In this document: one piece after another, positions 3,893-32,331 of the stretch
Position numbering within the stretch: position 1 is the stretch's first letter
Layout: every line of letters begins with the position of its first letter
NCBI RefSeq assembly: GCF_000012845.1
Contig: NC_009615.1
Coordinates: 1,015,501-1,079,500 of the forward strand
DNA: 64,000 bases
Direction of reading: 5' to 3'
Source of the DNA: Parabacteroides distasonis ATCC 8503
GTDB lineage: Bacteria > Bacteroidota > Bacteroidia > Bacteroidales > Tannerellaceae
Program-made: the position numbers and the translations under genes
The notes under the pieces: generated by a model
What the model was told of the DNA's origin: nothing
The model's database searches: none
The model's input: the letters and a program-made list of their open reading frames with translations, nothing else

Positions 3893-4975
3893 ATGATGCT
3901 AACTATTCATACATTGTTTAATGACCCGAACATTGTAAATGCAGTGATTCAGCGTGTCCTCAAGACAAGAAAGGACACAATTTATTGGCAGCAGTATTTG
4001 AGCTTCCGTAGGACTACTACTCGTGTATTTAAAGACTACATCGGTCAGGTTACTGGCGTGATGGCTGGTTCCATCAACTCCCGTTATGGCGAAAAGCCTA
4101 TCCGTGAACGCAGGAATATCGGTTCCGGATATGGTGAGATTGCCTATTTGGGTGACCGCTATCAAATCTCAATCGACCGTTTGTCTGACTTGCAGGACTT
4201 GATAGATAAGTATAATGCCGCCAAACCGGAAGACCAGAAAGCAGCCATGCGTGAAATCGTGGATTTTATCTATGACGATTATCGTCAGGTACTTCTTGCA
4301 GCCCACAAGCGTATGGATATTATTGTAGGCTCTCTGTTGATGACTGGAGCAGCAAGCGTGAAGAATAAGGACAAAAACGCAGGAGGTGTTGAATTACTGA
4401 ACATCGACTTACCCTTCAAGTTCATCAAACCGGGCACTGAAGATAAAGACCATTTTATCACGTACTTGCAGCAAACACTTAATGAATTGAGAGCTATCTA
4501 CGGTACATTCCCGAAAATGATTATGAGCCGTGGCACATTCGTCAAGAATATTATCGGTTCAAGTGAATTTGGAGATAAGTTCAAAATGCAGCTTACAGGC
4601 AATGAAATGTATATGTCTACCGGGCTTATCACCTCGCAACTGGCTTCTACCATTTTTACAGGTATCGGACTTCCGGCTATTGAAATCAAGGAAGATTATG
4701 TGGTAGACCAAACAGGTAAGAATATCCCCATTTATGCAGATGGTCGTATTTCCCTGCTTCCGCAGGATAAAATCGGTTATATGCGCTTCCACACTCCTTA
4801 TGAAGCTGTGGATGGTGTACCGGGACGTAATTACACTCAGGCAGATGGCGATATGCTGATTTCAGGTTACAAGGACGGCAATGGTCGCTATCTGGAATAC
4901 ACAGCCGAATGGATTCCGCAGATTGCGAACCCGAACCTGATTGTGAACTTCGATTTGAGTGAGATGAACGCATGA
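3893..4975 (+). CDS. major capsid protein
   Basis: A 360-residue protein resembling the phage major capsid protein E family (HK97 fold). It has an N-terminal arm with FRRTTTRVFKDY, a GYGEIAYLGDRYQI segment, and a C-terminal region with substrate-like strands ending NPNLIVNFDLSEM. It forms the shell of the head. A strong Shine-Dalgarno (AAAGGAGG, 3878-3885) precedes two consecutive ATG codons at 3893 and 3896; either could be used. Its stop overlaps the next ATG (ATGA), indicating coupled translation. Confidence 0.8.
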   Translation: MMLTIHTLFNDPNIVNAVIQRVLKTRKDTIYWQQYLSFRRTTTRVFKDYIGQVTGVMAGSINSRYGEKPIRERRNIGSGYGEIAYLGDRYQISIDRLSDLQDLIDKYNAAKPEDQKAAMREIVDFIYDDYRQVLLAAHKRMDIIVGSLLMTGAASVKNKDKNAGGVELLNIDLPFKFIKPGTEDKDHFITYLQQTLNELRAIYGTFPKMIMSRGTFVKNIIGSSEFGDKFKMQLTGNEMYMSTGLITSQLASTIFTGIGLPAIEIKEDYVVDQTGKNIPIYADGRISLLPQDKIGYMRFHTPYEAVDGVPGRNYTQADGDMLISGYKDGNGRYLEYTAEWIPQIANPNLIVNFDLSEMNA

Positions 4976-5286
4976 CAGTAAACGATTATATATTACAGAA
5001 GTTTCAGACCTTCGGCGTTAACTTGTCGGAGGCTGACCTTTTCGATATATGTCTGAACGCAAAGATAAGCGGAGGGGGGGAGATGAACGAGGATTGCCAA
5101 ACACGGGTGTCGGTGGCAATTGCGAAGTTCATCCCCTCTCTATTGCTTCGTGCCACTTCCATCAGCGAAAGCGGTTTTTCTATGTCTTGGGACATTCAAG
5201 GCATTAAGGATTACTATTCATTTCTGTGCAAGCGGTACGGTTTGAAAGACGAATTGAGTGATAAGCCTAAAGTGACTTTCTTATGA
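4972..5286 (+). CDS. small head-tail connector-like protein
   Basis: A 104-residue helical protein beginning MTVNDYILQKFQTFG. Position directly after the capsid gene and length fit the head-tail adaptor (gp6-like) slot. The sequence resembles proteins annotated DUF6706 in Bacteroides phages, an identification from memory only. It overlaps both neighbours by four bases. Confidence 0.5.
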   Translation: MTVNDYILQKFQTFGVNLSEADLFDICLNAKISGGGEMNEDCQTRVSVAIAKFIPSLLLRATSISESGFSMSWDIQGIKDYYSFLCKRYGLKDELSDKPKVTFL

Positions 5287-5606
5287 TATTCGCCCCACAC
5301 ATATTGCAGGTAAAAGTTATCACCCCGATGGACAAGGATGAGTTTGGCAGACCTATTCCCGGAACAGGTGGTGAATACTGGCAGGAGGTATGCAAGTGCC
5401 GTTGTGATGATAACACTACCAAAGAGTTTTCATCTGATAACGGCTCTGTGTATCGTCCGAATTATCATGTAGTATGTGAGAAAAGAATTACTGTCAAGGC
5501 TGGTGATGAAGTACGTTGCATGGATGGTGATGGCGTAAGAGGTCAAGGCGAAGTCTATACGGTAAAGAGTACAAACTACTTTAACTACTCGGAATTATGG
5601 ATGTAG
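5283..5606 (+). CDS. head closure (stopper)-like protein
   Basis: A 107-residue beta-rich protein with four Cys (two in VCKCRCDD). The order connector, stopper, tail completion is standard in siphophages, and a small beta-barrel here would close the connector channel. The call rests on position and predicted strand content. It starts in an ATGA overlap. Confidence 0.45.
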   Translation: MIFAPHILQVKVITPMDKDEFGRPIPGTGGEYWQEVCKCRCDDNTTKEFSSDNGSVYRPNYHVVCEKRITVKAGDEVRCMDGDGVRGQGEVYTVKSTNYFNYSELWM

Positions 5607-5896
5607 ATTTCGATTTCTCAGATGTCGACTCCTTTTTCGATGAAGGAGAATGGGAGGTCGAAAAGAAGATGATTGATGTAGGCGATGAAGCCGTGAAGTA
5701 CGCAGAGGAACATGGGGATTATCAAGACCATACACTCACTTTGAGAACGTCCAATGATTACGATGTCGATAAAGACGGTTTGACATTGAAAAACGAAGCG
5801 GAATACGCATCATTCGTAGAATCTAAAGGGTATGATGTTTTAAGTGGTGCCGCTCTTCATGCGGAGAAACGATTAAAAGAAGAATTTGAAAAATGA
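5597..5896 (+). CDS. HK97 gp10-like neck protein
   Basis: A 99-residue acidic protein. The pattern of a long N-terminal helix (EVEKKMIDVGDEAVKYAEE), a strand region (HTLTLRTSNDY), then EYASFVESKGYDVL and a Lys/Glu helix fits the HK97 gp10 tail-component family, which joins head connector and tail. It overlaps the preceding gene by 10 bases and the next by 4. Confidence 0.6.
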   Translation: MDVDFDFSDVDSFFDEGEWEVEKKMIDVGDEAVKYAEEHGDYQDHTLTLRTSNDYDVDKDGLTLKNEAEYASFVESKGYDVLSGAALHAEKRLKEEFEK

Positions 5897-6189
5897 AAAG
5901 AATATTCAAGTATGAATTGATTGTTGCAGACCATTCAAAACTATGTCTGCCTATCGGGTCGAGGATATTGTCTGTTCAAGTACAACGAGGTACTGTTTGC
6001 TTGTGGGCTATTGTAGATGAATATCAGAAAGAATTGTGCTTTGTGGATATTTATATGTACGGAACGGGGCAACACGTATCAGATGCAGATTTGGCTGGAA
6101 AAAGATTTGCCGGAACGGTTCAACTTGGAGATTTGGTTTGTCACGTATTTCTCGAATATGACGAAAACGTCCAATATTTGATAGTATGA
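5893..6189 (+). CDS. small protein of unknown function, DUF7352-like
   Basis: A 98-residue protein with an alternating strand pattern: YELIVADHSKLCLPIGSRI, then LSVQVQRGTVCLWAIVDE. It resembles the DUF7352 group (from memory). Such genes also occur outside structural operons, so this may be a moron sitting between neck genes. It is linked by ATGA overlaps on both sides, so it is translated with them. Confidence 0.45.
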   Translation: MKRIFKYELIVADHSKLCLPIGSRILSVQVQRGTVCLWAIVDEYQKELCFVDIYMYGTGQHVSDADLAGKRFAGTVQLGDLVCHVFLEYDENVQYLIV

Positions 6190-6575
6190 TAGTAACTACC
6201 GACATAGGAAACATTCTCTATCGGGACTGCAAGGCTTTCGGAATAGATATAGTGCCTGATGGTGAAACGCTGACGGGTGAATTGAAGTCCGAAAGGATTG
6301 TCATCCACACGAAGAAACAACAGCCGGGAAAGTATTGGAAGAAATCTTTCGCAGAAGTGAATTTTTGTGTGCCCGATTTGAGCAAGAATGAAGCCAACTC
6401 TATCCGACTGAATGAGCTTGAAAGACAAGCTATGAAGATATTAAGGAGTATAGGTTCCTATAATGGTTCTTTTTATCGCTATTCTATCTATAATATAGGA
6501 ACGGAAGCGGACACTGCTTTAAAGTGTCATTATGTGAATGTTAGTGTTTTGTTTGAAGTTTTAAATGTAAAATAG
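6186..6575 (+). CDS. tail completion-like protein
   Basis: A 129-residue protein ending in a strand-rich region (CHYVNVSVLFEVLNV). Length and position between the neck genes and tail tube fit a tail terminator (gp17/gpU-like), which caps the tail and joins it to the head. No diagnostic motif was recognised, so the call rests on gene order. Confidence 0.5.
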   Translation: MIVTTDIGNILYRDCKAFGIDIVPDGETLTGELKSERIVIHTKKQQPGKYWKKSFAEVNFCVPDLSKNEANSIRLNELERQAMKILRSIGSYNGSFYRYSIYNIGTEADTALKCHYVNVSVLFEVLNVK

Positions 6576-6577
6576 TT

Positions 6578-7105
6578 ATGGCAGAGAATAAAAAAATTGT
6601 GGTGGTAAACCTTCAGAAGCTGGAGGTTGCGCCGATCGGGGCTGGTGGTGCCGAAGGTTCTGTTTTTGAAGAAGTCCCGGTAGTTCATGAGGACACCTTC
6701 ACTTATGAGGATGAAGATCCGGAGGTTAAGGATTACAAAGATGTAGCTGGAAATACCTATTATTCCTCTAAAAAGCCGGGTGCGGTTAAGATCAATGCTT
6801 CTATTGGTATGTATGATCTTGAGACTAAGGCTAAATTCCAAGGTGGTAAGTTTACGGCGGGGTCAGAGAGTAAGCCGGGCACATGGGAGCGTGCCGACCA
6901 TGTAGAGAGTAAAGAGTTTACCGTCCGTGCCACAACTGAAGATGGTGTGAAAATTATTTTTCCTCGTGCCGGTGTTTCTGCTTCTGGTAAAGCGAATGAA
7001 AAGGCAATTGGCTTAGCCCTTGTTTTTACGGCGTTGAAACCAACCAAAGCCGGCGTTCCTATTGAGCGCTGGGAAGACGGGGAGGATACAACTTTGGGTG
7101 GATAA
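6578..7105 (+). CDS. major tail tube protein
   Basis: A 175-residue beta-rich protein with an acidic FTYEDEDPEVKDYKD segment and a C-terminal strand pair (IGLALVFTALKP). Size and position before the tail assembly chaperone and tape measure identify the tail tube subunit, which polymerises around the tape measure. A hydrophilic, Gly-ending C-terminus (EDTTLGG) is left exposed. Confidence 0.65.
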   Translation: MAENKKIVVVNLQKLEVAPIGAGGAEGSVFEEVPVVHEDTFTYEDEDPEVKDYKDVAGNTYYSSKKPGAVKINASIGMYDLETKAKFQGGKFTAGSESKPGTWERADHVESKEFTVRATTEDGVKIIFPRAGVSASGKANEKAIGLALVFTALKPTKAGVPIERWEDGEDTTLGG

Positions 7106-7147
7106 GTTAATGACGAGGGTGAGCAATCACCCTCTAATATTTAAACT

Positions 7148-7561
7148 ATGAGTGAGGTTTCAAAAAACATATCAGAGTTACTTTCCGGTACTTATGGAAA
7201 AGCTATTGTTGTAGGGGGAACAGTATATGTAATCAAAGCTCCTTCTATCAAAGTGATAATGAGGGCTACCCAATATTTAAGTAAGGTCGATTTACCGGAA
7301 AATGGCACTGTGCGGGAATTAATGAAGGTCGCTCCTGTCAATTTGGAGAATATCGTCAAGGGACTTTCATTCTTGGTGGTTGGTGATGTCCCGAATTATC
7401 AAAAAAGAGCTGAAAGCCTCGAACGGCAGATGCTTTCAGGTTCTAAAGAAGAATTATTGCAAGCGTATTTTGTCGCTTTTGAGTTAATAACCGGACGTGA
7501 TTTTTTCGTAGTCTGCCAGTTAGCGATGGAGCTGGCAAATCTAACAGTAAAACCCAAATAG
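7148..7561 (+). CDS. tail assembly chaperone (gpG-like)
   Basis: A 137-residue helical protein just upstream of the tape-measure gene, the conserved place of tail assembly chaperones that coat the tape measure during assembly. A canonical slippery heptamer T TTT TTC lies in phase at 7501-7507, and the -1 frame is open from there to 7767. Like lambda G/GT, this gene probably makes a short form and a longer frameshifted form. Confidence 0.65.
   Translation: MSEVSKNISELLSGTYGKAIVVGGTVYVIKAPSIKVIMRATQYLSKVDLPENGTVRELMKVAPVNLENIVKGLSFLVVGDVPNYQKRAESLERQMLSGSKEELLQAYFVAFELITGRDFFVVCQLAMELANLTVKPK
7501..7507 (+). promoter_or_regulatory. -1 ribosomal frameshift site TTTTTTC
   Basis: Zero-frame codons are GAT TTT TTC, so the heptamer T TTT TTC is in the X XXY YYZ phase. 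Both tRNAs can re-pair after a one-base backward slip. The -1 frame has no stop until 7767. The zero-frame stop is TAG at 7559. No stimulatory pseudoknot was worked out. Confidence 0.65.
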
Positions 7562-7767
7562 TAGGAGGAAATACCATCGTAGGAAGTATCACCTTATTTA
7601 TGGAAAATTTGCATCTTTCTTACAGGGAGGTGTATGAGGATCTTCCTTATCTTCTTTTGCTCTTGATGAGTGCTGATAAACCTATCGATATCCATGAGGA
7701 TAAAGATGGAACAGAAGTAAAGAAGATGTCGGGAAAGGATCTTATGAGACAAAAAAGAGGAGCATGA
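7501..7767 (+). CDS. frameshift extension of the tail chaperone (T domain)
   Basis: After slippage the -1 frame encodes about 87 residues ending in LSYREVYEDLPYLLLLLMSA and KDLMRQKRGA, a pattern common in the T domain of G-T chaperones. The T domain recruits the tail tube subunit. An internal ATG at 7600 could also start a 55-residue product. A strong AGGAGG at 7563-7568 is about 30 bases too far from it, but close to non-ATG codons in the same frame, so independent initiation cannot be excluded. Confidence 0.6.
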   Translation, partial: FFRSLPVSDGAGKSNSKTQIVGGNTIVGSITLFMENLHLSYREVYEDLPYLLLLLMSADKPIDIHEDKDGTEVKKMSGKDLMRQKRGA

Positions 7768-7865
7768 TTCTATATTCACGACAATCTTTCCATTGTCATG
7801 TATCTATTCTCATAAAATTCTACTACTTCATTTGTCTAATGTACTTTTATCCAAAACATTGATGT

Positions 7866-10800
7866 ATGCCCAAATTAGCGTTTCACATAGAAGCAGACTA
7901 TCAAAAAGTCATTAAGTTACGGGAAGAGATAGATAAGCTGAAATCTACTATTTCCGGGATGGATGGTAATACATCTCCGGCTACTTTCCGTGCGATGGAA
8001 GCCCAATTAGCTAAAAACACGAAAGAATTGGATTCTCTTGTCGCTTCAGCTGTACGTGCTGGTAATGAGATAAATCAAGGTTTTAAAAAGAAAATATTTG
8101 ATGCCTCGCAAGTTGTAAACGGGTTCTCAGAAAAGATTATCGCTCAAAAGTCGGTAATTAAAGGCATAGAAGCGGATGTAAAACGCCTTGGTGAAGCCTA
8201 TCGCATCGCATTGAAAAGAAATCCATTGTCCGCTAATAAGAAATTGGAAGAATATAATGCTGTACGTAAGGCTTTGGATGAAGAGAAGGCAGTTTTGTTC
8301 GACTTGACACAACAACAAGCTGGGGCACGTCTGTCTGTAAAGAAACTTCGTGACGAATATGCCCTTTATAAAGACGATGCTAAAGAGGTAGTAGAGAGTA
8401 ATAACGGTATTGCTATTTCTTGGAAGAAGGTATTGGCTGTTATCGGTGGGGTAGGTGTGTTGAAAGCGTTGGGTTCTGAAATTATCCGTGTGCGTGGCGA
8501 GTTCCAAGCCGCAGATACGGCTATTCAAACCTTGTTGGGAAGCAAGGAAAAAGCGGATGCGCTTATGTCGCAAGTACGTGAATATGCTAAGATTTCTCCG
8601 TTAGAGTTTTCGGATGTAACCCAAGCTACGCAGATGATGTTAGGCTTTAATATCGAGGCTGAGAAAGTACCACGTTATTTACAGGCTATTGGCGATGTCT
8701 CTATGGGAGATACCCAAAGGTTTAACTCGCTTACGTTGGCTTTCTCTCAAATGTCGGCGGCAGGAAAGTTGATGGGGCAAGATCTTAATCAGATGATTAA
8801 TGCCGGATTCAATCCATTGCAAATCATGGCAGATAAGACCGGAAAATCTATTGCTACGCTCAAAGATGAGATGTCTAAGGGGGCTATTTCCGCTGAGATG
8901 GTACAGCAAGCATTTATTGATGCTACCTCCGCAGGTGGTAGGTTCTATAATATGTCAGAGAATGCTTCCAAGGAGATAAATGGTCAACTATCTATGATGT
9001 ACGATGCATTGGATAGCGTTTTCAATGATTTGGGTCAGAAATCGGAAGGTGTTATCATGTCTGGTATTCAGGCGACTACATCCTTGGTTGAGAACTATGA
9101 AACAGTTGGTAAAGTATTAGCAGGATTGGTGATTACTTATGGAGCATACCGTACCGCTGTGATGCTTGTTACTGCTGCTGAAAGCAAACATACTATTGTA
9201 GAGATAGGGCTTACCAATGCTCGTGTATTGGCACGGAAAGTACAGCTTGCTCTTAATGCCTCAATGCTTACCAATCCTTATGTTGCTTTGGGAACGGTAA
9301 TTATTGGTTTGACAGCTACAATGTTGGCTCTATCTGACAGTACAACCATAGCAGAAAAGGCTCAAAAGAGATTCAATGATGAACAGGATAAAATGATTCA
9401 ACAAGAGACAGATCGAAAGAATCAAGTTGAATCATTGATACGTATAATTCAAGATGAGACAGAAACGGAATTAGCTAAAATATCCGTTTACGAACAGCTA
9501 CAGAAACTATCTCCTGCGATAACAGGAGCGTACAAGTTGGAAGAATTGGCCGTGCTTGATTTAGCAGAAGCAAATAAGTTATTAAATAAAGAACGTGATA
9601 CCAATACCTATGATTCGTATATCCGAAACATAGATGAGTCTACGCAGCGATTAAAGAAATTACGAGAGGACAACGGGAGACTTATAGGCGTATCTCCTTC
9701 AACAGGAATACCGCTTACTGTAAACAACAATAAAGCGATTGCGGAAGAAGAAGAACGTATCAAACTCCTACAAAAAGCGTTAGAAAATTTCAAAAGAAAG
9801 CTGTCAAAATCAACAACAGACACGACAAAAGAAGAAATAAAAAATAAATCCTACTGGGAGAAGCAGAAAAAAGAAGCGGAAGCCGCTCGTGACGCTTTAG
9901 CTGTTTCTGAGAAAAATTCAAAGAAATGGAATGAGTACACTAAACAGATACAGGAGGCACAGGAACAAATAGACAAATATTCAAATCCAAATGAGAAGGA
10001 TAAGAGTACGGATAATCAACTCAAGCAACAAGAGAAATTGATAGACGAACTCCTATCCCTCCGCCGGCAGAACCAGCAATCCGAGATCGACCTGATGAAA
10101 GAAGGCTCCGCAAAGAAGATCGCCCAGATAAACCTAGACTATGACAATGAGATCGCCGCCATACTTACCAAGGAAAAAGAGTGGAAAGACGCTCAAGGTG
10201 GCAAACTGACTAAGGAACAGACCGTGGAGATTCGTACAGCCTTGGTGAACTCATACGTCAAACGGGAGCGATCGACCTCTAATGTGAATAAGGAACAACT
10301 GGAGGAAGAGAAACGTGCCATGAACGAGTATCTGAAAGAATACGGTTCTTATCTTGATAAGAGAGATGCTATCACGGCTCTTTATAACGAGAAGATAGCC
10401 AAGGCTACGACGGAAGGCGAGCGTAAGTCCCTTTCCGAGGCCATGAAAAGGGAACTGTCTGATCTCGACATAGAGGCGAGCAAGACGACTTCCGCTATCA
10501 GTCGGTTGTTCGGTGACATGAAAGACAAGACCCTCTCCGAGTTGGAGGCCATCAACCGGAAGGGGCGTGAAGCCTTGGAGTTCTTGAAAAGCGGTGTCTG
10601 GGATGAGAGCAAGGGCAAGGATTTCGGTATCACGAAAGAGACGTTTGAACTGTGGAGTAAATCACCCGATAAACTAAAAGATATCTCGGATGCGCTCAAG
10701 GAGAACAAGGAAGCCGCGGACAAGTTGCGCCCGGCATACGAGAAGGTCGCCAAAGGTCTGAAAGGCGTATTTGAGGCTGGTAACGATACGAAAAAGCTGC

Positions 10801-12032
10801 GACAGGCAATTGACGATATAGAGGAAGGGCTTGGCGAAATCATGCGGTCCGGGCAATTCCTCTCTGATACTTTCTCGAAACTCGGGGATTCGTTCGGTGG
10901 TGCGTTCGGTGAGATAGCCGAAGGCTTGAATGTGGCCATGGACGCGGTCAATTCCGCCATGGACGGGGCGAAAGCCGGTGCGATGTTCGGGCCGATCGGT
11001 GCGTCTGCCGGTGCCGCTATCGGGGTGGTCACATCCCTTGCCTCCTCTATCGCCAAGATCCATGACAAGAAGAACGAGAGTCGTATCCAGCGTTTGCAGG
11101 ATCAGATCGACACGTTGGGCAAGTCGTACGATAAGCTGGGCAGGTCCATCGAGAAAGCCTATTCCAAGGATGCCTCCAAGCTTATCGACCAGCAGAATAA
11201 GCTATTGGAACAGCAAAAAGTGCTTATCCAAAACCAGATCAAGGAGGAGGAGGACAAGAAGAAAACCGACAATGACCGCATCAAGGAGTGGCGGGACCAG
11301 ATAGACGAGATCAATAACACCATAGCGGATAATAAGGAGGCCGGCAAGGACGCCATTTTCGGTAGTGACATAAAATCGGCGATCGACGATTTCGCCAACG
11401 CTTACGCCGATGCGTGGGCCGCCGGGGAGGACAAGGCGCGATCGGCCAAGGATCTCGTGAGGAAGATGATAAGGAACATGGTCACGGAGTCGATCAAGGC
11501 CGCCGCTTCCGATCCCATGAAAGAGATCCGGGAGAAGCTGCTCGAGTTCTGGTCCGACGATTATATCAGCGACTGGGAACAGGATTATCTGGATCGGAAG
11601 GCGCAGGAGCTGGCCGACGACCTCGACCGTAAGTTTGGTTGGGCCGACAAATATTTCAATACCGGTAATGCGGTAGAGGAGGACGACGGGCGTACGGCCT
11701 CGTCCAAAGGTGTTGGTTCCATCTCCCAGGACTCCGCGGATGTTATAGACGGTAAGATGTCGACCCAACTTATATTTTTAGATAGGACGTTGGTGCAAGT
11801 GACGGGTATAGCCGACCAGATGCGCTTCATCTACGACCTCCAGACAAGGGGCTGGAAGAACGTGGAGGCGATCAAGGACCTGTCCGGGAAGGTGTCGGAG
11901 AACACGGCCAAGGTAGCGGAGATCTCCGGACGTATAGAGGCCCTATCCGAGAAGATAGAGGCGAATACCAAGTCGGCGGCCTCCGGTATAAAGACTATTA
12001 ACGACAAGGGGATATTAATGAGATCAAGATAA
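7866..12032 (+). CDS. tail tape measure protein
   Basis: A 1388-residue protein. Residues 1-180 are coiled coil and about 195-400 form the conserved tape-measure domain. Two hydrophobic segments follow (about 415-438 and 465-491), then long coiled coils and a Gly/Ala-rich hydrophobic stretch at about 1036-1063. It sets tail length and is injected at the membrane. Base composition changes sharply near codon 728 (about 10,050): the 60 bases from 9421 have 18 G/C and those from 11401 have 41. The protein looks like a fusion of two phage lineages. Its end overlaps the next ATG. Confidence 0.9.
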   Translation: MPKLAFHIEADYQKVIKLREEIDKLKSTISGMDGNTSPATFRAMEAQLAKNTKELDSLVASAVRAGNEINQGFKKKIFDASQVVNGFSEKIIAQKSVIKGIEADVKRLGEAYRIALKRNPLSANKKLEEYNAVRKALDEEKAVLFDLTQQQAGARLSVKKLRDEYALYKDDAKEVVESNNGIAISWKKVLAVIGGVGVLKALGSEIIRVRGEFQAADTAIQTLLGSKEKADALMSQVREYAKISPLEFSDVTQATQMMLGFNIEAEKVPRYLQAIGDVSMGDTQRFNSLTLAFSQMSAAGKLMGQDLNQMINAGFNPLQIMADKTGKSIATLKDEMSKGAISAEMVQQAFIDATSAGGRFYNMSENASKEINGQLSMMYDALDSVFNDLGQKSEGVIMSGIQATTSLVENYETVGKVLAGLVITYGAYRTAVMLVTAAESKHTIVEIGLTNARVLARKVQLALNASMLTNPYVALGTVIIGLTATMLALSDSTTIAEKAQKRFNDEQDKMIQQETDRKNQVESLIRIIQDETETELAKISVYEQLQKLSPAITGAYKLEELAVLDLAEANKLLNKERDTNTYDSYIRNIDESTQRLKKLREDNGRLIGVSPSTGIPLTVNNNKAIAEEEERIKLLQKALENFKRKLSKSTTDTTKEEIKNKSYWEKQKKEAEAARDALAVSEKNSKKWNEYTKQIQEAQEQIDKYSNPNEKDKSTDNQLKQQEKLIDELLSLRRQNQQSEIDLMKEGSAKKIAQINLDYDNEIAAILTKEKEWKDAQGGKLTKEQTVEIRTALVNSYVKRERSTSNVNKEQLEEEKRAMNEYLKEYGSYLDKRDAITALYNEKIAKATTEGERKSLSEAMKRELSDLDIEASKTTSAISRLFGDMKDKTLSELEAINRKGREALEFLKSGVWDESKGKDFGITKETFELWSKSPDKLKDISDALKENKEAADKLRPAYEKVAKGLKGVFEAGNDTKKLRQAIDDIEEGLGEIMRSGQFLSDTFSKLGDSFGGAFGEIAEGLNVAMDAVNSAMDGAKAGAMFGPIGASAGAAIGVVTSLASSIAKIHDKKNESRIQRLQDQIDTLGKSYDKLGRSIEKAYSKDASKLIDQQNKLLEQQKVLIQNQIKEEEDKKKTDNDRIKEWRDQIDEINNTIADNKEAGKDAIFGSDIKSAIDDFANAYADAWAAGEDKARSAKDLVRKMIRNMVTESIKAAASDPMKEIREKLLEFWSDDYISDWEQDYLDRKAQELADDLDRKFGWADKYFNTGNAVEEDDGRTASSKGVGSISQDSADVIDGKMSTQLIFLDRTLVQVTGIADQMRFIYDLQTRGWKNVEAIKDLSGKVSENTAKVAEISGRIEALSEKIEANTKSAASGIKTINDKGILMRSR

Positions 12033-14924: not shown

Positions 14925-16397
14925 ATGTCATTAACAACAGCAGAGGAGGAGAAGGTACGTGCGATTATCACGGCCTTCGATAACGGCAAGACGATCGACC
15001 AGCTGCCCTTGGCCGACACGAGCCAGCCCTCCAAGTATTTGATCGAGGGAGTGTCCAAGGAAACGGGCGAGTCGGTTAAGATCCCTTTCGCCGACGCGGT
15101 ATCGATCGTGAACAAGCACGTCGCTATCCGTCGCTGGAAACGTGGTCAGGGCACGCCAGTCGGCGAGGCTTACGGTAATATCGATTTCCTGCGGGATCTT
15201 CCCTCCGTGATCGGTCTGGGCTGCTACCTCGTGTCCGTTGACCGTAGCCGGCGTAAGCTTGACCCGACGAACCACCGTCGTTTCGCCGACGGCAGTCCCG
15301 CTGCCTTGGACGGCACGATGGGCGATTACCTGTGGTGCTGGAACGCCCACTACTACTCTTGGTGGGTTGACTCCACCTATTATTACGAGGCTGTCAGCCC
15401 GACCCCGATCGAGGGTCATTTGAACTATTACATCCCGGCCGGGGGTACGTCGGCCTTGGGAGCCGGCGTCATGGACCGTACGAGCGGCACGTTGGTCTCC
15501 GTCGTCAGTGACGATCCCCGTTATCGTGGCGGGAACAACGATGCGACGAGGGATGGCAAGCACAACACGCAGCTAGGCATGGTTGCCACGAACATGAACG
15601 CCGCGGCTTTCGGCACGGCCGCCCGCAAGAAGGGTGAGGGCTGGGAATCCGGCTGGTTCGTCGCGAACAGCGTCGTCGGTTATCTCTACCGCCTTATCAT
15701 GGGTACCCGTGATTGCCAGTCCGCGTTGAACCCGGTAAAGGACTCCAATGGCCTATATCAGGGCGGTACCGGTAAGGGGGTTACGGAATGGTCTTGGGAT
15801 CCTTGGTCGAGCCATAACGGTGGTTATCCGATTATTCCGACGAGCGTAGGGATCGAGTTGGGGGACTCGGTCGGCGTGAGCGACTACGCCGTGAAGGGCT
15901 CGGACGGTGGTACCGTCCACCAAGCGCACGTCCCTTGCTTCCTAGGCTTGAAGAACTTCTACGGGCATATCGGTCTGATCGAGCGTGGCGCTTTGATAAA
16001 CAAGCTGTCCGACGGTAGCGGAGATTATTATGTCGCCCCGTCCCTTTACTCGGCTTTCAACATCAACTCGATCGAGGGTCTGATAAAGGCTGCGAAGGTT
16101 CCTAAGAACGATCCCAGTGGCTGGAAATATATCACTGAGCTCAGTATGCAGAATCTATGCTCCGCCCCGACTGTCGCCTCCGGCAGCTCCAGCACCTATT
16201 ATTGCGACGGTTGGTATAACGACAACGCTATTTCCGGCCTTCGCTGTCCGTTCCGTCGTGGTCATGCGCACTACGGTGCTTTTGCCGGCTTAGCGTACCT
16301 CTATGGTAGCATTGCGGTCTCGCACGCTTACGTGGACTGGTCGTCGCCCCTCTGCTATTTTGCAGAGGACGTAAGCCCCGTGCCCGTGCAGTACTAG
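14925..16397 (+). CDS. DGR target (variable) tail protein
   Basis: A 490-residue protein starting at ATG 14925 (MSLTTAEEEKVRAII); an upstream TTG at 14898 is less likely. The N-terminal 60 residues look like a tail-attachment segment, the middle is Gly/Trp/Tyr-rich, and residues about 437-476 are the variable repeat (RCPFRRGHAHYGAFAGLAYL onward). The fold is presumably C-type lectin-like, as in other DGR targets, with variable residues on the ligand-binding face. It should sit at the tail tip and set host range. The gene ends only 14 codons after the repeat, and those codons contain the DGR hairpin. Confidence 0.85.
   Translation: MSLTTAEEEKVRAIITAFDNGKTIDQLPLADTSQPSKYLIEGVSKETGESVKIPFADAVSIVNKHVAIRRWKRGQGTPVGEAYGNIDFLRDLPSVIGLGCYLVSVDRSRRKLDPTNHRRFADGSPAALDGTMGDYLWCWNAHYYSWWVDSTYYYEAVSPTPIEGHLNYYIPAGGTSALGAGVMDRTSGTLVSVVSDDPRYRGGNNDATRDGKHNTQLGMVATNMNAAAFGTAARKKGEGWESGWFVANSVVGYLYRLIMGTRDCQSALNPVKDSNGLYQGGTGKGVTEWSWDPWSSHNGGYPIIPTSVGIELGDSVGVSDYAVKGSDGGTVHQAHVPCFLGLKNFYGHIGLIERGALINKLSDGSGDYYVAPSLYSAFNINSIEGLIKAAKVPKNDPSGWKYITELSMQNLCSAPTVASGSSSTYYCDGWYNDNAISGLRCPFRRGHAHYGAFAGLAYLYGSIAVSHAYVDWSSPLCYFAEDVSPVPVQY
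16232..16351 (+). repeat. DGR variable repeat (VR)
   Basis: These 120 bp match 16605-16724 except at 16269, 16272, 16302, 16309, 16312, 16323, 16329 and 16335. At each the template has A and the VR has C, T, T, G, T, C, T and G respectively. Each change hits one of the eight AAY codons, giving His, Tyr, Tyr, Ser, Ile, His, Tyr and Asp. The last 14 bases, TGGTCGTCGCCCCT, are invariant and GC-rich, as expected of the IMH (initiation of mutagenic homing) end. Confidence 0.95.
16349..16368 (+). promoter_or_regulatory. DNA hairpin at the 3' end of the VR
   Basis: CCTCTGC (16349-16355) and GCAGAGG (16362-16368) form a perfect 7-bp stem with the 6-nt loop TATTTT. It overlaps the last three bases of the VR. 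The corresponding template positions have no such repeat. In the Bordetella phage BPP-1 DGR a hairpin or cruciform just downstream of the VR marks the target for retrohoming; this element has the right place and size. It also codes for the last residues of the target protein. Confidence 0.75.
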
Positions 16398-16432
16398 CGT
16401 TCATTGTGTTCGGGTGTCCATCGTGTCCATTA

Positions 16433-16532
16433 GGGTGCGAAGCGCCCGAGCACCCAAGGCACGTAAGTGCCGCATCTTAGTTCTTTGACATGTTGTTTCC
16501 GTTCCTGTTTTATTTTTCCCGCCGTAAGGCGG
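16433..16532 (+). ncRNA. hairpin cluster between VR and TR
   Basis: Three hairpins are visible: GGGTGC/GCACCC (16433-16455), GGCAC-GTAA-GTGCC (16458-16471) and CCGCC-GTAA-GGCGG (16519-16532). The last two share a GTAA tetraloop of the stable GNRA class. The region could end the target-gene transcript or form part of a structured RNA upstream of the template. There is no good T-run after any stem. Whether it is transcribed with the template RNA is unknown. Confidence 0.45.
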
Positions 16533-16554
16533 TCGCACTTGAAAAATTAAATAT

Positions 16555-16562
16555 TACATTTG
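16555..16562 (+). promoter_or_regulatory. -7 box upstream of the template repeat
   Basis: TACATTTG matches TAnnTTTG. A start about 7 bp downstream would place the 5' end of the template RNA near 16570, some 35 nt before the TR. No -33 TTTG is seen at the usual spacing, so strength is uncertain. It would drive TR RNA and probably the reverse transcriptase. Confidence 0.45.
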
Positions 16563-16604
16563 TGCCGCCTATTGATTGGGCGGGTTGTCTTCTCTGACGT
16601 CCAG

Positions 16605-16724
16605 TTCCGGCCTTCGCTGTCCGTTCCGTCGTGGTCATGCGAACAACGGTGCTTTTGCCGGCTTAGCGTACCTCAATGGTAACAATGCGGTCTCGAACGC
16701 TAACGTGAACTGGTCGTCGCCCCT
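16605..16724 (+). repeat. DGR template repeat (TR)
   Basis: These 120 bp hold 19 adenines, 16 of them paired in eight AAC or AAT codons in the target frame. AAY is the codon class that gives the widest amino-acid range and no stop codon when A is randomised, a hallmark of DGR templates. The TR lies 163 bp upstream of the reverse transcriptase start and 254 bp downstream of the VR. Homology ends at 16724; a frame remaining open around it is not evidence of translation. Confidence 0.95.
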
Positions 16725-16887
16725 AGGATATGCCGCTGATTTATTCAGTAAGAAGAAGTGGAGGAGAGACCCTGTCACTGGACAAAAAATCAAGGCTAAA
16801 GGTATAGTCCCGGTAGGTTGATAAACCGACGGCTCATGACCCGATGGCGATTGCAGACACTGGACACTAAAAGACACTTGGGACACC

Positions 16888-18402
16888 ATGAGGAGAAAAG
16901 GTGACTTTTCCGGGGATATAGCCCGGAAAGAAAACTATTACAAGGCTTTTGATCATGCCAGCAAGAACAAGCATGGCAAAAAGGCCATAATAAAGTTCGA
17001 GGCGGACTTGGAAAAGAACCTTTCCGATCTCCTATACTCTTTTGAAAACGGGACGTTCGTAACCTCCCCGTATCGTTTCATGACCGTCCATGAGCCGAAG
17101 AAACGTCTTATCGGGATGCTCCCTTTCCCGGATCATGTCCAGCACTGGGCGATGCTCAATGAGGTGGAGGATTATTTTACGAGATCCTTCTCCGCGTATA
17201 CCTACGGAGGGGTGAAAGGACGCGGTCCCCACGCCTACATGAGGATGATCCGGAAGGTCCTGAGAAAATATCCGGAACGTACCACCGACTATCTCCTGTG
17301 CGATATCCACCACTTCTATCCGACCGTCAATCACCCTGTACTGAAAAGCCAGCTCAGGACACGTATCAAGGATAATCATTTATTGCGAAGGCTTGATGAG
17401 ATCATCGATAGCGTCGAGGGGGATACCGGTATGTTTCCCGGCACGAAGCTGGCGCAGTTCTTCTCGCTTGTCTATCTTTATCTTTTCGATCACGATTTGA
17501 AGCGGTGCTTCCATGTCGGGGAATGCCCGGCTTTGGTTGAGTACTACACGAAAAGGTATATCGAGGAAAGTATCGCAACGGCCAAAACAGAACATGATTA
17601 TGAGGAGTTATCCAAAGGGATCCAATATCTCTCGGACAGGTTCAAGGGATATCTGAACCGTCTGGATTTCTGCTACCGTCTCGCCGATGATGTCCTGATA
17701 CTGCATGAGGACACCGTATTCTTGCACCTTGTCATCGAGTGGATCGGTCTTTATTACGCTAACGAGCTTAGGATCGGTCTTAACCCGAGATGGAAGATCG
17801 GGCACGTGACGGACGGTGTCGATACGGGGGGATACGTGCATTTCCCGGATCACGTCCGTGTCCGGAAACGTAACAAGGTGGCTCTCTGCCGCCAGATAGC
17901 GAGATTGAGAAAGAAGGGTTTGCCGGACGAGGAGATAAGGAAGAGGGCCTCTTCCCGTATAGGCTTCATTCAACACGCTGATACGAGTAATCTATTAAAT
18001 AAATTAGGAATGGAAACACCAAGGAAAAGACTGGGACAGGTGATAAGGAATAAAAAAAGTCCGTGGGAGGATCTCCCGGCCGACCGGAAAATGAGATTCG
18101 AGGATATACTTTATGATACCCGGATACCGGAGGATAAACGAGGGCTGGAGGATGATAAACTCATAGAGTTGATTGATTATAAAATCGAGGATAGCAAGAT
18201 CGAGAAAAACGAGGACGGCACGCCAAAGAAGTGCCTCGCCATACGTTTCCGATGGAAAGGCGAGGAGCGTTACGCTTTCACCGGTTCCGCCGTCTTGATT
18301 GATCAGGCGCTCACGGACTTCTCTCACGAGGACTTGCCGGTGGATACCGTGATAAAGGTGCTCACCAACAAGTTCGGTAAGAAATTTTTCAGGTTCACTT
18401 GA
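16888..18402 (+). CDS. DGR reverse transcriptase with C-terminal extension
   Basis: A 504-residue protein. It has the RT metal-binding Asp motif DIHHFYPTV (about 138-146), the DGR-type motif 4 GTKLAQ (about 185-190) in place of the retroviral QG motif, and the catalytic LADD (about 264-267, in CYRLADDVLIL). The thumb region follows to about 380. It copies TR RNA into A-mutagenised cDNA that replaces the VR. Motif 4 has Ala where most DGR enzymes have Ser-Gln. Residues after about 395 (a Lys/Glu linker, then a beta-rich segment ending KFGKKFFRFT) exceed the usual length. No separate Avd accessory gene was found nearby. Confidence 0.9.
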   Translation: MRRKGDFSGDIARKENYYKAFDHASKNKHGKKAIIKFEADLEKNLSDLLYSFENGTFVTSPYRFMTVHEPKKRLIGMLPFPDHVQHWAMLNEVEDYFTRSFSAYTYGGVKGRGPHAYMRMIRKVLRKYPERTTDYLLCDIHHFYPTVNHPVLKSQLRTRIKDNHLLRRLDEIIDSVEGDTGMFPGTKLAQFFSLVYLYLFDHDLKRCFHVGECPALVEYYTKRYIEESIATAKTEHDYEELSKGIQYLSDRFKGYLNRLDFCYRLADDVLILHEDTVFLHLVIEWIGLYYANELRIGLNPRWKIGHVTDGVDTGGYVHFPDHVRVRKRNKVALCRQIARLRKKGLPDEEIRKRASSRIGFIQHADTSNLLNKLGMETPRKRLGQVIRNKKSPWEDLPADRKMRFEDILYDTRIPEDKRGLEDDKLIELIDYKIEDSKIEKNEDGTPKKCLAIRFRWKGEERYAFTGSAVLIDQALTDFSHEDLPVDTVIKVLTNKFGKKFFRFT

Positions 18403-18459: not shown

Positions 18460-18873
18460 ATGGAGACAAGAGCGATTTACACGGAGAGAAAGACATTCGT
18501 AAAATACGATGACAACCATTACCTGCTATACCTGAACGAGGAGGTCTTGGAGAACCACGTTCCGGAGGGCCACGGGGGCGAACCGGAACCGGAGCCTTGC
18601 ACGGCTTACGCCTATACCGGCACGTGCGAGGATGGCGGCACGCTGGTCGAGGCTACTTCCGCAAGTTATGACAGTCTCGTGTCCGGATTGATCCGGAGAG
18701 AGTATTCCGCCGATCGGGTAGAGGCGATAACGCTGAATAAATTGAGCTCGGATAATGAGAGAAAGGCCGAGTTTGAGGCCGAGTTCGCCTGTCTGGAACG
18801 TTACCGTAACGACTGCAAGGCGAGGGTACGTGCCTTGCTGGGTATGCCCGAAAGCGTCTCGAACACCCTTTAA
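18460..18873 (+). CDS. phage protein of unknown function
   Basis: A 137-residue acidic protein with an N-terminal strand region (TFVKYDDNHYLLYLN), a Pro/Glu-rich linker, a YAYTGTCEDGGTLVEA segment and two C-terminal helices. Similar small genes occur in tail regions of Bacteroides phages (from memory). It follows the reverse transcriptase but lacks the compact four-helix pattern expected of Avd, so it is not called as the DGR accessory protein. Confidence 0.5.
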   Translation: METRAIYTERKTFVKYDDNHYLLYLNEEVLENHVPEGHGGEPEPEPCTAYAYTGTCEDGGTLVEATSASYDSLVSGLIRREYSADRVEAITLNKLSSDNERKAEFEAEFACLERYRNDCKARVRALLGMPESVSNTL

Positions 18874-28996: not shown

Positions 28997-30304
28997 TTAT
29001 TTTAGACTATCCCATTTGAATAAGGATAACAACTTCCTGTTGGCCTCCCAAAGTACACTGTAATCCCGTTCGATATACACACGAGCCAACTTCAATGTGG
29101 AATCGGTATGGTTAAGCATCTCATCTACCCTTGCAATATCAATGCCCGCTTTATTAGCGGCTAACGTTGCCATTGTATGCCGGGCATAATAATAATTCAG
29201 ATCCGGAACTCCTATTATTTCTCCTATCTCATCTAGTCCTTTATTTATTGATTTATTGAAATTCTCTGAACTTCTATACCGCTTATGAAAAATAAAGACT
29301 TTCTCTCCAGATGGGTCGGAGTATTTCTCAAACAGTTTTTTTATTTCCGGTTCAATCCGGACTTTCATTTCTGCCTTATCTTCACGCCTAGTACGTGTCT
29401 TAGTCCTTTGATAGGAAATAATTCCGTTTTCGACGGTAGGAGCATTATAGAAATCGGCACTATTCATGCCCATCATCGCAAATGATAGGATAAAAATGTC
29501 TTTCGCTAAATTGAAAACAGGCTGACCTCCATTGCGAGCATTTTGTTTATACGGAAGATCTATTATTTGCTGTACTTGGTCTATAGACAATGTTCGATGC
29601 TCACTTTGGGGAACTGGTGCGATTTTGTATTTTGAGAACGGGGAAAATGGGATGCGTATGATTCCTCTATCCTCGTCGTTATATTCATTTTTAGCGAGGT
29701 TGTGTAATGTTTTGATTTGTGATGTGTAAAGGGATATGACCCGTTTGCCTTTAGGCTTATCAGTTGGTTTTGATCCACCATCGCGGCATCCTTTAAAAGA
29801 AGGTTCATTTTTTAGGAACTTCTCAAACGCTCTCATAAAAGATGCTGTAATGAGGTTTATGTCGAGCTCTTCTTTTCCGATGAACCTGACAAGCGCATTT
29901 ATGGCTATCCGATAGTTCTTTGCCGTACCTAGTCTTCCGTCCTGCTCGAGATCATCCGCTATTTTTCGTCCATAGGAAATGAAATTCAGGCTGAAATTCT
30001 CTTCCTCTGTAGTCAAGTACTCCACAATTCGATCAACCTCCCAGTGCTCTGCTTCAACACCTGCGGATGTCAATTTTTTCTTAAATCCTAATATCATCTC
30101 TTCCATTAGGTCGATTACGGCTTGATTCTTGATCTTGATTTTTTCTTTTCCGTTGTCTTTCTTTTTTATAATATCTGAAACTGACACATTGTGGCTGGTC
30201 TTGATGTATTTGGACTTGCCTTTCTGTGTTATACGGATTTTTACGTTATATGTACCATCCTCTTTCCGTTGATGCGGGAGTACTAAAAATTTGAATGTAG
30301 CCAT
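28997..30304 (-). CDS. phage tyrosine integrase
   Basis: A 435-residue tyrosine recombinase from the ATG at 30304 (MATFKFLVLPHQRKEDGTYN); an ATG 42 bp further upstream is possible but lies across the promoter. It has an Arm-type N-terminal DNA-binding region, a SAM-like core-binding domain (about 100-210) and a catalytic domain with ARHTMATLA, LNHTD and the Tyr in VYIERD. The first catalytic Arg region reads FAMMGMNSADF, a variation common in Bacteroidales integrases. It integrates and excises the prophage. The gene points inward from the right end. Confidence 0.9.
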   Translation of the reverse strand: MATFKFLVLPHQRKEDGTYNVKIRITQKGKSKYIKTSHNVSVSDIIKKKDNGKEKIKIKNQAVIDLMEEMILGFKKKLTSAGVEAEHWEVDRIVEYLTTEEENFSLNFISYGRKIADDLEQDGRLGTAKNYRIAINALVRFIGKEELDINLITASFMRAFEKFLKNEPSFKGCRDGGSKPTDKPKGKRVISLYTSQIKTLHNLAKNEYNDEDRGIIRIPFSPFSKYKIAPVPQSEHRTLSIDQVQQIIDLPYKQNARNGGQPVFNLAKDIFILSFAMMGMNSADFYNAPTVENGIISYQRTKTRTRREDKAEMKVRIEPEIKKLFEKYSDPSGEKVFIFHKRYRSSENFNKSINKGLDEIGEIIGVPDLNYYYARHTMATLAANKAGIDIARVDEMLNHTDSTLKLARVYIERDYSVLWEANRKLLSLFKWDSLK

Positions 30305-30343
30305 AATCGTGCACTGTAAAACATTTGTAAAAAAAATAGTACA

Positions 30344-30351
30344 CAAAAGTA
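30344..30351 (-). promoter_or_regulatory. -7 box for the integrase
   Basis: The minus strand reads TACTTTTG, matching TAnnTTTG, 40 bp before the integrase ATG at 30304. This is one reason to prefer that start. No -33 box at normal spacing. The AT-rich 200 bp to the right should include the prophage end, but no tRNA or clear attachment repeat was seen. Confidence 0.45.
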
Positions 30352-30587: not shown

Positions 30588-32288
30588 TTATTTTAAGAAA
30601 TCAACTAGACTTGCCGGAAGATAGAACGTGTTATTTTTATCGACATAAACGACGACAGAGTTTAACCGTATCTCATCTTGGCCTTTCTTCCCGGACTTCA
30701 CGATATTGGAGAACGGGGTGATCGTTAGCTGTTTTTTCTTATCTTTCTTGTTCTTAACGATCAAGGTTGGAGAACCTTTCTCGTCGGCGGCAGGGACGAT
30801 CTCGCAAGTGTAATCCTCGAATACGTCCGTGTGGCGTGCGAAGTTCTTGTTTGTAAGATCTTCCAAGTTTTCGTGTGTCAATCCGAACAAATTGCATAAG
30901 TACTCATTCAGCTCGATGTTCGTATTCATACCTAGGGGTAAGGTTCCTTGCGGATGGTAAGCGGCAAGGAATACTTCCTCGCCCGTATGGCCGCCGGTCG
31001 TGAAACCGAAGCAAGTGCGGGAAGTGATGATATGCGCCATCAATCCGGTTAACGAGCCACTGTACATGGAGGAATTATCTTCTGGTTTGCGTTGGTCTTC
31101 CGGTATCGGGCTATTCTTATAATCCTTGCAATTGTTCAACGCATTCATCTCTTCCGGTGTCAGCTCGAAGCCGGCGTAGGTGCGGAATACGTTTTGCACT
31201 TCTGAGTTAGGAACGCTGTTTACCTTGTTGGCGAAACCCTCGGCGGTCAATTTATACAGGGAGAATTGGTGGAACAATTGATCTTTCGTCAATTTATCGT
31301 AACCTTTACAATCTCTTCTACCTAAGCTGATACCGCTGTTTCCGTGGTCGGGTACGATGACAACGGCAGTCTCGCCGTTATTGCGTGCGAACTCCAATGC
31401 GGCACCGCAGGCACGATCGAATGCCAAGAAATCGGTAGCCATACCTACCGGGTCATTTCCATGAGCGGCCCAGTCTACCTTACTGCCTTCTACCATTAAG
31501 AAGAAGCCATTCGGGTTCTTGGATAATTTGTCGATCGCCTTACGAGTCATTTCCTCGATAGAAGGTTGCTCTTCCGGATTGCGGTCGATATCGTAAGCCA
31601 TTTCCTTGTTGCCATATAAAGCCCACATCTTCTGATTATTATCGGCACGCATACCTTTCAGGTCGTTTCTATATACGCCGTATCCGTTCGCCAATAGATA
31701 ATCTTCCATATCCTTTGTAAGGATAGAAACTCCACCACCGATAACGACATCGATATCATTATGAACCATCTGCGGAGCGATCCAGTCGTATTTACCACGG
31801 TTGTAGCTATGAGCGGAGCAGTCCGCCGGGGTAGCGTGCGGGAATTCGCAAGTGAAAACCAATCCCGTGGCTTTGCCCTGCAACATCTTTCCAGCCTCCA
31901 ATACAGTGGTAAGCGGTTGGAAGGCACGGGCCGGGTCGGTCGGGTAGATATCGTTATCACCGTCGTTCTCCGGGTAAGTGGATACATAACCCGTACGGCT
32001 CGGTTGTCCGGTCATGTAGCATGATGTAGTAGGAGCGGAGTCGCCGATAGGGGCGTTAGAAGAATGCGTACGCACCGTTCCGCACAAATACGGGTCGATG
32101 TTCAATTTCGGTTTGCTGGGATCTTGGTACCATTGCAACCAACGGGCGATAGAGATAGTCGCCAATGAGGTTCCGTCCGGGATTAAAAGGATCACGTTCT
32201 TGACAGGCTTCACGTTCTCCTTTTCCACGGCATTGGCCGGCATGATGATAATAGCCAGCAAAAGCAGAAAAGCTAATGTTTTTTTCAT
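30588..32288 (-). CDS. phoA: periplasmic alkaline phosphatase
   Basis: A 566-residue protein from the ATG at 32288, nine codons inside the longest frame, chosen because it begins a clear signal peptide (MKKTLAFLLLL). The PhoA fold is marked by LIPDG, the nucleophile motif GDSAPTTSCYMTG (Ser after Asp), EGSKVDWAAHGND, VIVPDHGNSG and the metal-site GGHTGEEVFLAAYHP. It releases phosphate from monoesters in the periplasm. It has a C-terminal extension of about 60 residues rich in Lys that E. coli PhoA lacks. It is the first clear chromosomal gene right of the prophage. Confidence 0.9.
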   Translation of the reverse strand: MKKTLAFLLLLAIIIMPANAVEKENVKPVKNVILLIPDGTSLATISIARWLQWYQDPSKPKLNIDPYLCGTVRTHSSNAPIGDSAPTTSCYMTGQPSRTGYVSTYPENDGDNDIYPTDPARAFQPLTTVLEAGKMLQGKATGLVFTCEFPHATPADCSAHSYNRGKYDWIAPQMVHNDIDVVIGGGVSILTKDMEDYLLANGYGVYRNDLKGMRADNNQKMWALYGNKEMAYDIDRNPEEQPSIEEMTRKAIDKLSKNPNGFFLMVEGSKVDWAAHGNDPVGMATDFLAFDRACGAALEFARNNGETAVVIVPDHGNSGISLGRRDCKGYDKLTKDQLFHQFSLYKLTAEGFANKVNSVPNSEVQNVFRTYAGFELTPEEMNALNNCKDYKNSPIPEDQRKPEDNSSMYSGSLTGLMAHIITSRTCFGFTTGGHTGEEVFLAAYHPQGTLPLGMNTNIELNEYLCNLFGLTHENLEDLTNKNFARHTDVFEDYTCEIVPAADEKGSPTLIVKNKKDKKKQLTITPFSNIVKSGKKGQDEIRLNSVVVYVDKNNTFYLPASLVDFLK

Positions 32289-32331
32289 GTGCTTTAATTT
32301 AATAATGTATAACAAATTCTTCTATTAAATC

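Follow-up and report, generated by a model that had tools for sequence, protein, structure and literature searches.

A prophage of Parabacteroides distasonis ATCC 8503 carries a tail gene, a near-repeat of its 3′ part and a reverse transcriptase (RT) with unusual catalytic motifs. Does such a cassette work as a diversity-generating retroelement (DGR)? We analysed a window of 64,000 nucleotides, that is, the whole stretch of DNA under study, and suggest that the cassette is very probably a variant-type phage DGR that is functional.

Table 1. Features of the cassette and its surroundings (positions within the window)
Feature	Position	Strand	Evidence or remark
Tape measure protein, same prophage	7866..12032	+	PF20155 E 3.9e-27
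Target gene of the DGR, encoding a tail protein of 490 aa	14925..16397	+	FGE-type C-type-lectin fold predicted, starting near residue 97
Variable repeat (VR)	16232..16351	+	target residues 437-475
Hairpin CCTCTGC-TATTTT-GCAGAGG	16349..16368	+	straddles VR 3′ end; not at TR
Template repeat (TR)	16605..16724	+	19 adenines; TR/VR alignment and relatives
RT-17-like structured RNA (RF03020), TR-RT spacer	16768..16860	+	26.9 bits, full model 1-95
RT, 504 aa, fused C-terminal domain	16888..18402	+	phrog_1423 E 6.9e-74; BPP-1 bRT 8ub7 E 3.7e-23
RT motif 4, PGTKLAQ where DGR RTs have (I/V/L)GxxxSQ	17437..17457	+	motif alignment
RT motif C (domain 5), LADD instead of the usual YxDD	17680..17691	+	motif alignment
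RT C-terminal domain, predicted OB-fold-like	18010..18399	+	
Tyrosine integrase, probable right end of prophage	28997..30346	-	PF13102 E 3.5e-11; PF00589 sub-threshold at E 3.2e-4
Alkaline phosphatase gene (host type)	30588-32315		begins the stretch after the integrase

Template and variable repeat

The two repeats align over 120 nt each without gaps and differ at eight sites. As is characteristic of DGRs, the differences are confined to TR adenines (8/8; four A>T, two A>C and two A>G), and each of the eight in-frame AAY codons of the TR holds exactly one of them. If eight differences fell at random on the 120 sites, this all-adenine outcome would have a probability of 9e-8. An unaided repeat search also recovers the pair (127 nt, 91% identity). 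A preliminary description made from the sequence alone had reported the repeat copy and the A-only differences, one per AAY codon and at 8 of the 19 TR adenines, and the alignment bears out both. It had also stated that the target gene ends in the repeat. The 120-bp repeat stands, but it is not the gene end, as 46 nt including the stop codon follow the VR. In the 4.81 Mb genome the TR matches only the TR and VR sites (E 0.001), thus no second VR was found elsewhere.

Target gene and prophage

The target protein is assigned to a tail PHROG, which supports the earlier placement of the target in the tail module. Its predicted structure is closest to the DGR protein TaqVP of Thermus aquaticus (Foldseek), with which it shares 17% identity, and Mtd is also matched; the VR would thus lie, as in other DGRs, in the 3′ part of a gene for a C-type-lectin fold. 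TaqVP is not known to be a phage tail protein. We compared the window protein with 60 homologs hand-picked from 120 listed ones (n = 61). The mean entropy at ten AAY positions, eight of the window TR and two lost from it, is 3.08 bits versus 1.36 bits for the other VR residues and 1.19 bits for residues 66-436. The target cluster comprises 7866 member sequences, compared with 986 for the RT and 517, 92 and 1052 for three clusters of a neighbouring tail protein. We infer that the varied residues are at the surface and that the target may act as the changing receptor-binding tip expected earlier.

At the 3′ end of the VR, and not at the TR, the DNA can form a hairpin of the BPP-1 type with a stem of 7 bp. 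Stems of 7-8 bp are also present at the VRs of the relatives L003, L005, L007, L070, L071, L075 and L076. By analogy with the role described for the VR-end hairpin of BPP-1 (PMC3240598), it is likely the mark of the target.

Terminase, portal, head, tape measure and integrase genes support the claim that the region is a prophage. The phage is a temperate one with an integrase, and the DGR lies in its tail module. For the attachment site, a comparison of the flanks gave only repeats of 13-14 bp; since there are several of them, they are at chance level, and to name the 13-mer at 30347 as the site would be a guess.

Reverse transcriptase and template RNA

That an RT follows the TR, as had been claimed, is confirmed. 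It is assigned to the DGR clade by its match to phrog_1423 and to BPP-1 bRT, its top match among solved structures (PDB 8ub7). The window RT has no listed match in Pfam even with a limit of E 10, and RVT_1 does not report it; thus surveys that find DGRs via PF00078 alone would miss this DGR. Two motifs depart from the canonical signature, which is typical but not defining for a DGR. Instead of (I/V/L)GxxxSQ in domain 4, all seven members of the clade have PGTKLAQ or a PGTKLAQ-type sequence, and instead of YxDD (or FxDD) in domain 5 all seven have LADD, in which both aspartates are retained and tyrosine is replaced by leucine. Among 122 aligned RT rows, LADD occurs in 29, AQ in 24 and FADN in 82.

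For two pairs within its own clade the dN/dS of the RT is 0.049 and 0.084, and that of its C-terminal domain 0.064 and 0.065. At the level of the compared sequences, purifying selection on the window RT is thereby shown. The model of the C-terminal domain has a weak structural match to OB folds. The RTs of L007 and L008 are frameshifted. At the DNA level a run of seven adenines precedes the C-terminal domain in the window and in 5/6 relatives of its clade, and a run of eight in L008; we do not claim a programmed frameshift there. A search of the host genome with the window RT gave one match, its own, and no second; RVT_1 gave no match in this genome.

The spacer between TR and RT matches the RT-17 model with E-values of 0.0056 and 0.0018, its score being below the gathering threshold of 40.4 bits. 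The spacer of L007 scores 33.5 bits, and RT-17 is at or above gathering in 10/10 loci with a FADN-type RT that were searched. We regard this RNA as probably the 3′ part of the template RNA. No match to bAvd was found in the host genome or in five related virus records, a search that detects bAvd in the BPP-1 record and could miss a diverged Avd. The preliminary description had called the DGR "complete", which calls for qualification: Avd was not detected, and the RT combines non-canonical motifs with a fused C-terminal domain.

Variation among related phages

In the window and six relatives, all seven VRs are distinct and 79/83 of the TR-VR differences are at TR adenines (hypergeometric p about 1e-63, with sites pooled and not independent). 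The five closest phages are 97.5-98.4% identical to the window across the 3478-bp cassette, and their VRs differ pairwise at 12-18/120 sites. The order VR-TR-RNA-RT is kept in the relatives, and in those examined TR and RT are a few hundred bases or less apart. As far as sequences can tell, the seven distinct VRs, the strong adenine bias and the low dN/dS of the RT support the earlier suggestion of active or recent mutagenic homing. A DNA search of phage records for relatives gave no match, a search of GTDB contigs with six peptides gave none that was confirmed, and a scan with P0051 found nothing.

The FADN sister clade

RTs with FADN, in which the second catalytic aspartate is replaced by asparagine, form a supported sister clade of the window lineage (L037-L043, L070-L077 and the 82 FADN rows of the alignment). 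Across the entire protein, C-terminal domain included, they are about 36-44% identical to the window RT, and the cassettes have the same order, with an exact VR hairpin of at least 5 bp in 7/10 examined. Unlike the window RT, they mostly have LGxxxSQ in motif 4. In 13 FADN loci, 143/285 TR adenines are changed versus 0/1254 other bases, counted in segments that a scanner had chosen and whose lengths were fixed manually, with trimmed 3′ ends in most of L070-L076. Because non-A mismatches cost more in this scanner than A mismatches and segments end there, the scan favours A-only pairs; it is hard to see, however, how this bias alone could give 143 adenine changes and no others in 1539 sites. Left out of these and of the Hankyphage-type counts were L010, L030, L039, L040, L051, L059, L061, L062, L067, L068 and L069, which have a related RT but no pair, and L065, whose pair lies at the edge of a contig. 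For L050 and L052, no TR/VR pair and no RT match were obtained. In the open-licence literature searched we found no description of DGR RTs with an xxDN motif.

Discussion

We suggest that the window DGR operates as follows. A transcript would span the TR and the structured RT-17-like spacer, and the RT would bind the spacer RNA. The fused OB-like domain probably supplies the nucleic-acid binding that Avd performs in BPP-1. The RT would then copy the TR and misincorporate opposite template adenines; priming, use of the hairpin and receptor binding are likewise presumed. We also propose, tentatively and with doubts that slightly outweigh our belief, that there is an Avd-free, single-protein branch of DGRs in which an OB-fold-fused RT works on an RT-17-type template RNA and the active site was rebuilt (LADD with AQ in the window lineage, FADN in the large sister clade) while adenine mutagenesis was kept.

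Could the RT instead be a dead relic, with AQ and LADD as marks of inactivation and the VRs as fossils of older homing? Toro and Nisa-Martinez judged AQ and AN variants of SQ to be probably inactivation or sequencing errors (PMC4244168), and the two frameshifted relatives would fit. However, both motifs are common to the whole clade and recur in the RT alignment, the dN/dS is low and the VRs of even the closest phages differ, so that we consider a relic improbable. Hardly more credible, and if anything slightly less so, is the action of another RT in trans on the window TR and VR. For other DGRs such trans action has been suggested (PMC10907252), but the host genome has only the one match to the window RT and none to RVT_1, and in the relatives the TR stays close to its own RT. 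As RVT_1 misses the window RT, a further odd-type RT unlike it could hide in the genome. An ordinary diverged duplication without any retroelement can yield direct repeats of such length, but the adenine bias in seven phages, 13 FADN loci and five Hankyphage-type loci, each beside an RT, makes this explanation negligible.

A functional DGR could in addition hit its own TR, by self-homing or VR-to-TR conversion, so that TRs erode at adenines. Among the five closest phages, transversions (AAT to CAT, CCT or TTT) are found in 4/22 TR adenine columns versus 10/812 elsewhere in the cassette (Fisher p 3e-4; 0.004 if scored as three events), and L070 and L072 have CCT where L071, L073 and L074 have AAT. 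The pattern was noticed after the fact, however, and when every aligned flank serves as background, p rises to 0.011 (transversions) or 0.23 (changes of any kind). It was not replicated in the L070-L076 sets, the Hankyphage sets or the seven-phage set, and tandem changes affect non-A bases of the TR too (columns 89-90; L005). Moreover, Hankyphage TRs are reported to be without substitutions or identical between strains (PMC6199706 and PMC12135933). We therefore regard such erosion as an unlikely addition to the functional DGR, if a less remote one than the relic.

The window RT lineage is little noticed and has an unusual active site. Published rules hold that both aspartates of motif C are invariant in DGR RTs (PMC3521204) and that AQ instead of SQ probably means inactivation or error (PMC4244168). 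Both look too narrow because RTs that break them adjoin adenine-mutated VRs in gut phages. The natural series of YADD, LADD and FADN, and of SQ and AQ, offers a test of which residues cause the errors of the RT at adenine. The Rfam orphan RT-17 is likely to belong to DGR template RNAs, and an enzyme that needs no Avd would make it simpler to diversify proteins in a targeted way.

Of the known systems, the BPP-1 DGR (Mtd, Avd, bRT) has the same order of target with VR, TR, spacer and RT, TR-VR differences that are adenine-specific according to the literature, a C-type-lectin target in the tail (a predicted fold in the window) and a hairpin after the VR. Among solved structures, its bRT is closest in sequence to the window RT, but it has 328 residues versus 504 with the C-terminal OB-like domain, is accompanied by Avd, which was not detected for the window cassette, and differs from the window RT with its LADD and AQ motifs. 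The window hairpin has the loop TATTTT where a GRNA loop is reported for phage DGRs.

Hankyphage (Bacteroides phage p00) is likewise a temperate phage of Bacteroidales with a tail target, though described in the literature as a transposable phage. Its RT has YCDD and keeps SQ, and the two loci searched have an RT-3 RNA instead of RT-17. The adjoining 161-aa protein P0001 matches DUF4376 and not bAvd. In five Hankyphage-type loci the TR/VR pair has the adenine bias and the RT alongside. The VR-TR offset is 370 versus 373 in the window, and the Hankyphage RT aligns with the window RT from end to end, including the C-terminal domain, at 25% identity.

Position and variation of the retroelement

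The preliminary description placed a diversity-generating retroelement (DGR) in the tail module of a prophage, which is borne out by the phage genes around the cassette (table). Tail genes precede the target gene, and downstream of the reverse transcriptase (RT) lies a 1223-aa protein that matches some tail PHROGs. The element carrying the DGR is an integrase-type temperate phage.

Features of the cassette and its prophage surroundings (window positions)
Feature	Position	Remark
portal protein	1-1299	upstream of DGR target
major head protein	3893-4975	upstream of DGR target
tape measure	7866-12032	upstream of DGR target
large terminase		just outside window, left side
target gene	14925-16397	(+)
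variable repeat (VR)	16232-16351	(+)
template repeat (TR)	16605-16724	(+)
RT-17 RNA match	16768-16860	
RT	16888-18402	(+)
tyrosine integrase	28997-30346	marks probable right prophage end
alkaline phosphatase gene	30588-32315	with integrase marks probable right prophage end

A 13-bp repeat, AAGTACGTCAAAA, occurs at 30347 beside the integrase start and about 55 kb away at G000:C1:990617; that it is the attachment core is a guess. Left of the terminase, the stretch L078 encodes at 4067-9186 and 15720-15793 a helicase, cytosine-5 and adenine DNA methylases and tRNA-Val. A tRNA-Ala gene lies at position 18600 of stretch L079.

Two 120-nt repeats had been described which differ at eight template adenines, one per AAY codon. 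The repeats are where they had been placed and the VR-TR alignment gives the same eight of eight. We judge the reading as well as the observation to be right. Over the whole 4,811,379-bp genome the TR matches these two places only.

The same cassette is found in six IMG/VR phages (RT identity 84-99%), and a DNA scan with the TR-junction pattern returned again those six contigs. Each TR differs from its own VR at 8 sites in the window, 9 in L006 and L008, 11 in L004, 13 in L003 and L005 and 20 in L007. As grounds against its reading the preliminary description had named variation not biased to template A, or a VR identical in all strains together with a damaged RT. We find that 79 of the 83 differences fall on TR adenines, which make up 148 of the 840 sites (4/692 at other sites: two of these belong to L007, and L004 and L005 have one each, at the base that opens the repeat), and that all seven VRs are distinct. 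In the target protein, over an alignment of the window's copy with 60 of the 120 homologs listed (61 rows), mean entropy is 3.08 bits at the ten AAY positions, 1.36 at other VR residues and 1.19 at residues 66-436. Species names on close homologs of the target include Parabacteroides goldsteinii and Parabacteroides sp., and for one with 69% identity Bacteroides fragilis, which makes Parabacteroides a likely source. In a large protein database the 90% cluster of the target has 7866 members, that of the RT 986 and those of the neighbouring tail protein 517, 92 and 1052; the large target cluster fits the expectation for a hypervariable protein, subject to the way in which the database dereplicates members.

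Two window TR codons, CAT and TTT, lack adenines of the AAT present in most relatives (TR positions 32 and 50-51); the first is CAT in L008 and CCT in L006. Transversions of A are locally in excess in the TRs, nominally significant in a post hoc test that other sets of loci did not replicate, and template erosion at adenines is therefore a weak possibility. In three relatives (L010, L039, L040) the target gene ends in a TR-type flank (SPLNF or SPLNL) and a second repeat was not found, as if recombination between VR and TR had deleted the intervening DNA and left a locked DGR.

A variant reverse transcriptase

PHROG and PDB sequence searches group the window RT with DGR RTs. All seven members of its clade carry non-family motifs, PGTKLAQ as motif 4 (usually (I/V/L)GxxxSQ) and LADD as motif C (usually YxDD), and it is in this variant of the DGR machinery that we locate the novelty. 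The DiGReF study gives the motif-C aspartates as 100% conserved and a change of Tyr to Phe in 14% (PMC3521204); a later survey ascribes AQ/AN variants to probable inactivation or errors of sequencing (PMC4244168). Against the window RT, Pfam RVT_1 listed no match up to E 10, and across the whole genome none at E 0.001 (3 of 14 control genomes matched). It scores 24.4 bits with a FADN RT (cut-off 29.6), 61.6 with BPP-1 bRT and 48.0 with the Hankyphage RT. The precomputed PF00078 label is absent from the 16 closest homologs (P0002-P0017) and present on many of the more distant ones listed; the latter counts against a wider claim that RVT_1 misses such RTs. A run of seven A (18052-18058) lies at the junction of the RT and its C-terminal domain; L008 has A8 and a frameshift there (7165), and the L007 RT has a separate frameshift close to its end. 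Both could be slippage, error or decay.

We aligned 120 listed of 231 RT homologs with the window and Hankyphage RTs. Motif C in these 122 rows, many near-identical, is FADN in 82, LADD in 29, YADD in 4, FVDD in 2, and FMDN, IADD, SADD, YCDD or gapped in one each. Once five rows were removed (P0031, half of which aligns, and four that are shorter), dereplication at 93% left 69 rows: 37 FADN, 23 LADD, 4 YADD, 2 FVDD and one each of IADD, FMDN and YCDD. In the tree the 37 FADN rows form a single group (support 100/99), and the FMDN row stands apart on a very long branch.

FADN lacks the second catalytic aspartate. In 13 FADN loci (L037, L038, L041-L043, L070-L077), with segments chosen by a scanner favouring A-only pairs and lengths set by hand, 143 of 285 TR adenines are changed and none of the 1254 remaining sites; the counts are 79/148 and 4/692 for the LADD clade, and 50/138 and 2/417 for five Hankyphage-type loci. 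The dN/dS of FADN RTs is 0.053-0.103 (five pairs, L070-L076) and 0.066 (L041-L042), two further pairs being saturated, and L071, L073 and L074 have three VRs on one common TR (120 sites). Judged from these A-only changes, low dN/dS and shared template, loss of the second motif-C aspartate has very probably left these RTs active, unless another RT acts in trans in those hosts.

Hairpins, structured RNA and associated proteins

In BPP-1, target recognition is reported to require a hairpin (PMC3240598). A comparable 7-bp stem, CCTCTGC-TATTTT-GCAGAGG, begins in the last VR bases of the window; its TR is without it. Among 17 loci examined, an exact VR stem of at least 7 bp occurs in eight (window, L003, L005, L007, L070, L071, L075, L076) and a shorter one in L006, L042, L043 and L077; none was found in L037, L038, L041 or the Hankyphage loci L029 and L066, and no TR has a stem above 5 bp.

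The spacer between TR and RT of the window has a match to the structured RNA RT-17 (RF03020) that covers the whole model but lies below the gathering threshold (26.9 against 40.4 bits). L005 and L007 (33.5 bits) also miss this threshold, which all ten FADN loci searched reach. In 12 tabulated loci RT-17 starts 23-52 nt past the TR and ends 27-157 nt ahead of the RT. Scanning 123 host-family genomes, with stricter filters under which the window's own genome is unmatched, gave RT-17 at seven places in six genomes (6/7 above cut-off), with a related RT beside six and an A-biased TR/VR pair beside five. At L081 and L086 RT-17 and an RT are present and the pair was not found; L087 (G046:C35:9627-9704) has RT-17 and a pair with 16 of 17 differences at A, and no related RT within the stretch examined.

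Hankyphage-type loci carry RT-3 instead of RT-17 (2 of 2 searched). Beside the Hankyphage RT, a 161-aa protein (L029 5302-5787) does not match bAvd but matches Pfam DUF4376 (E 1.3e-5); it is probably the protein taken as Hankyphage Avd.
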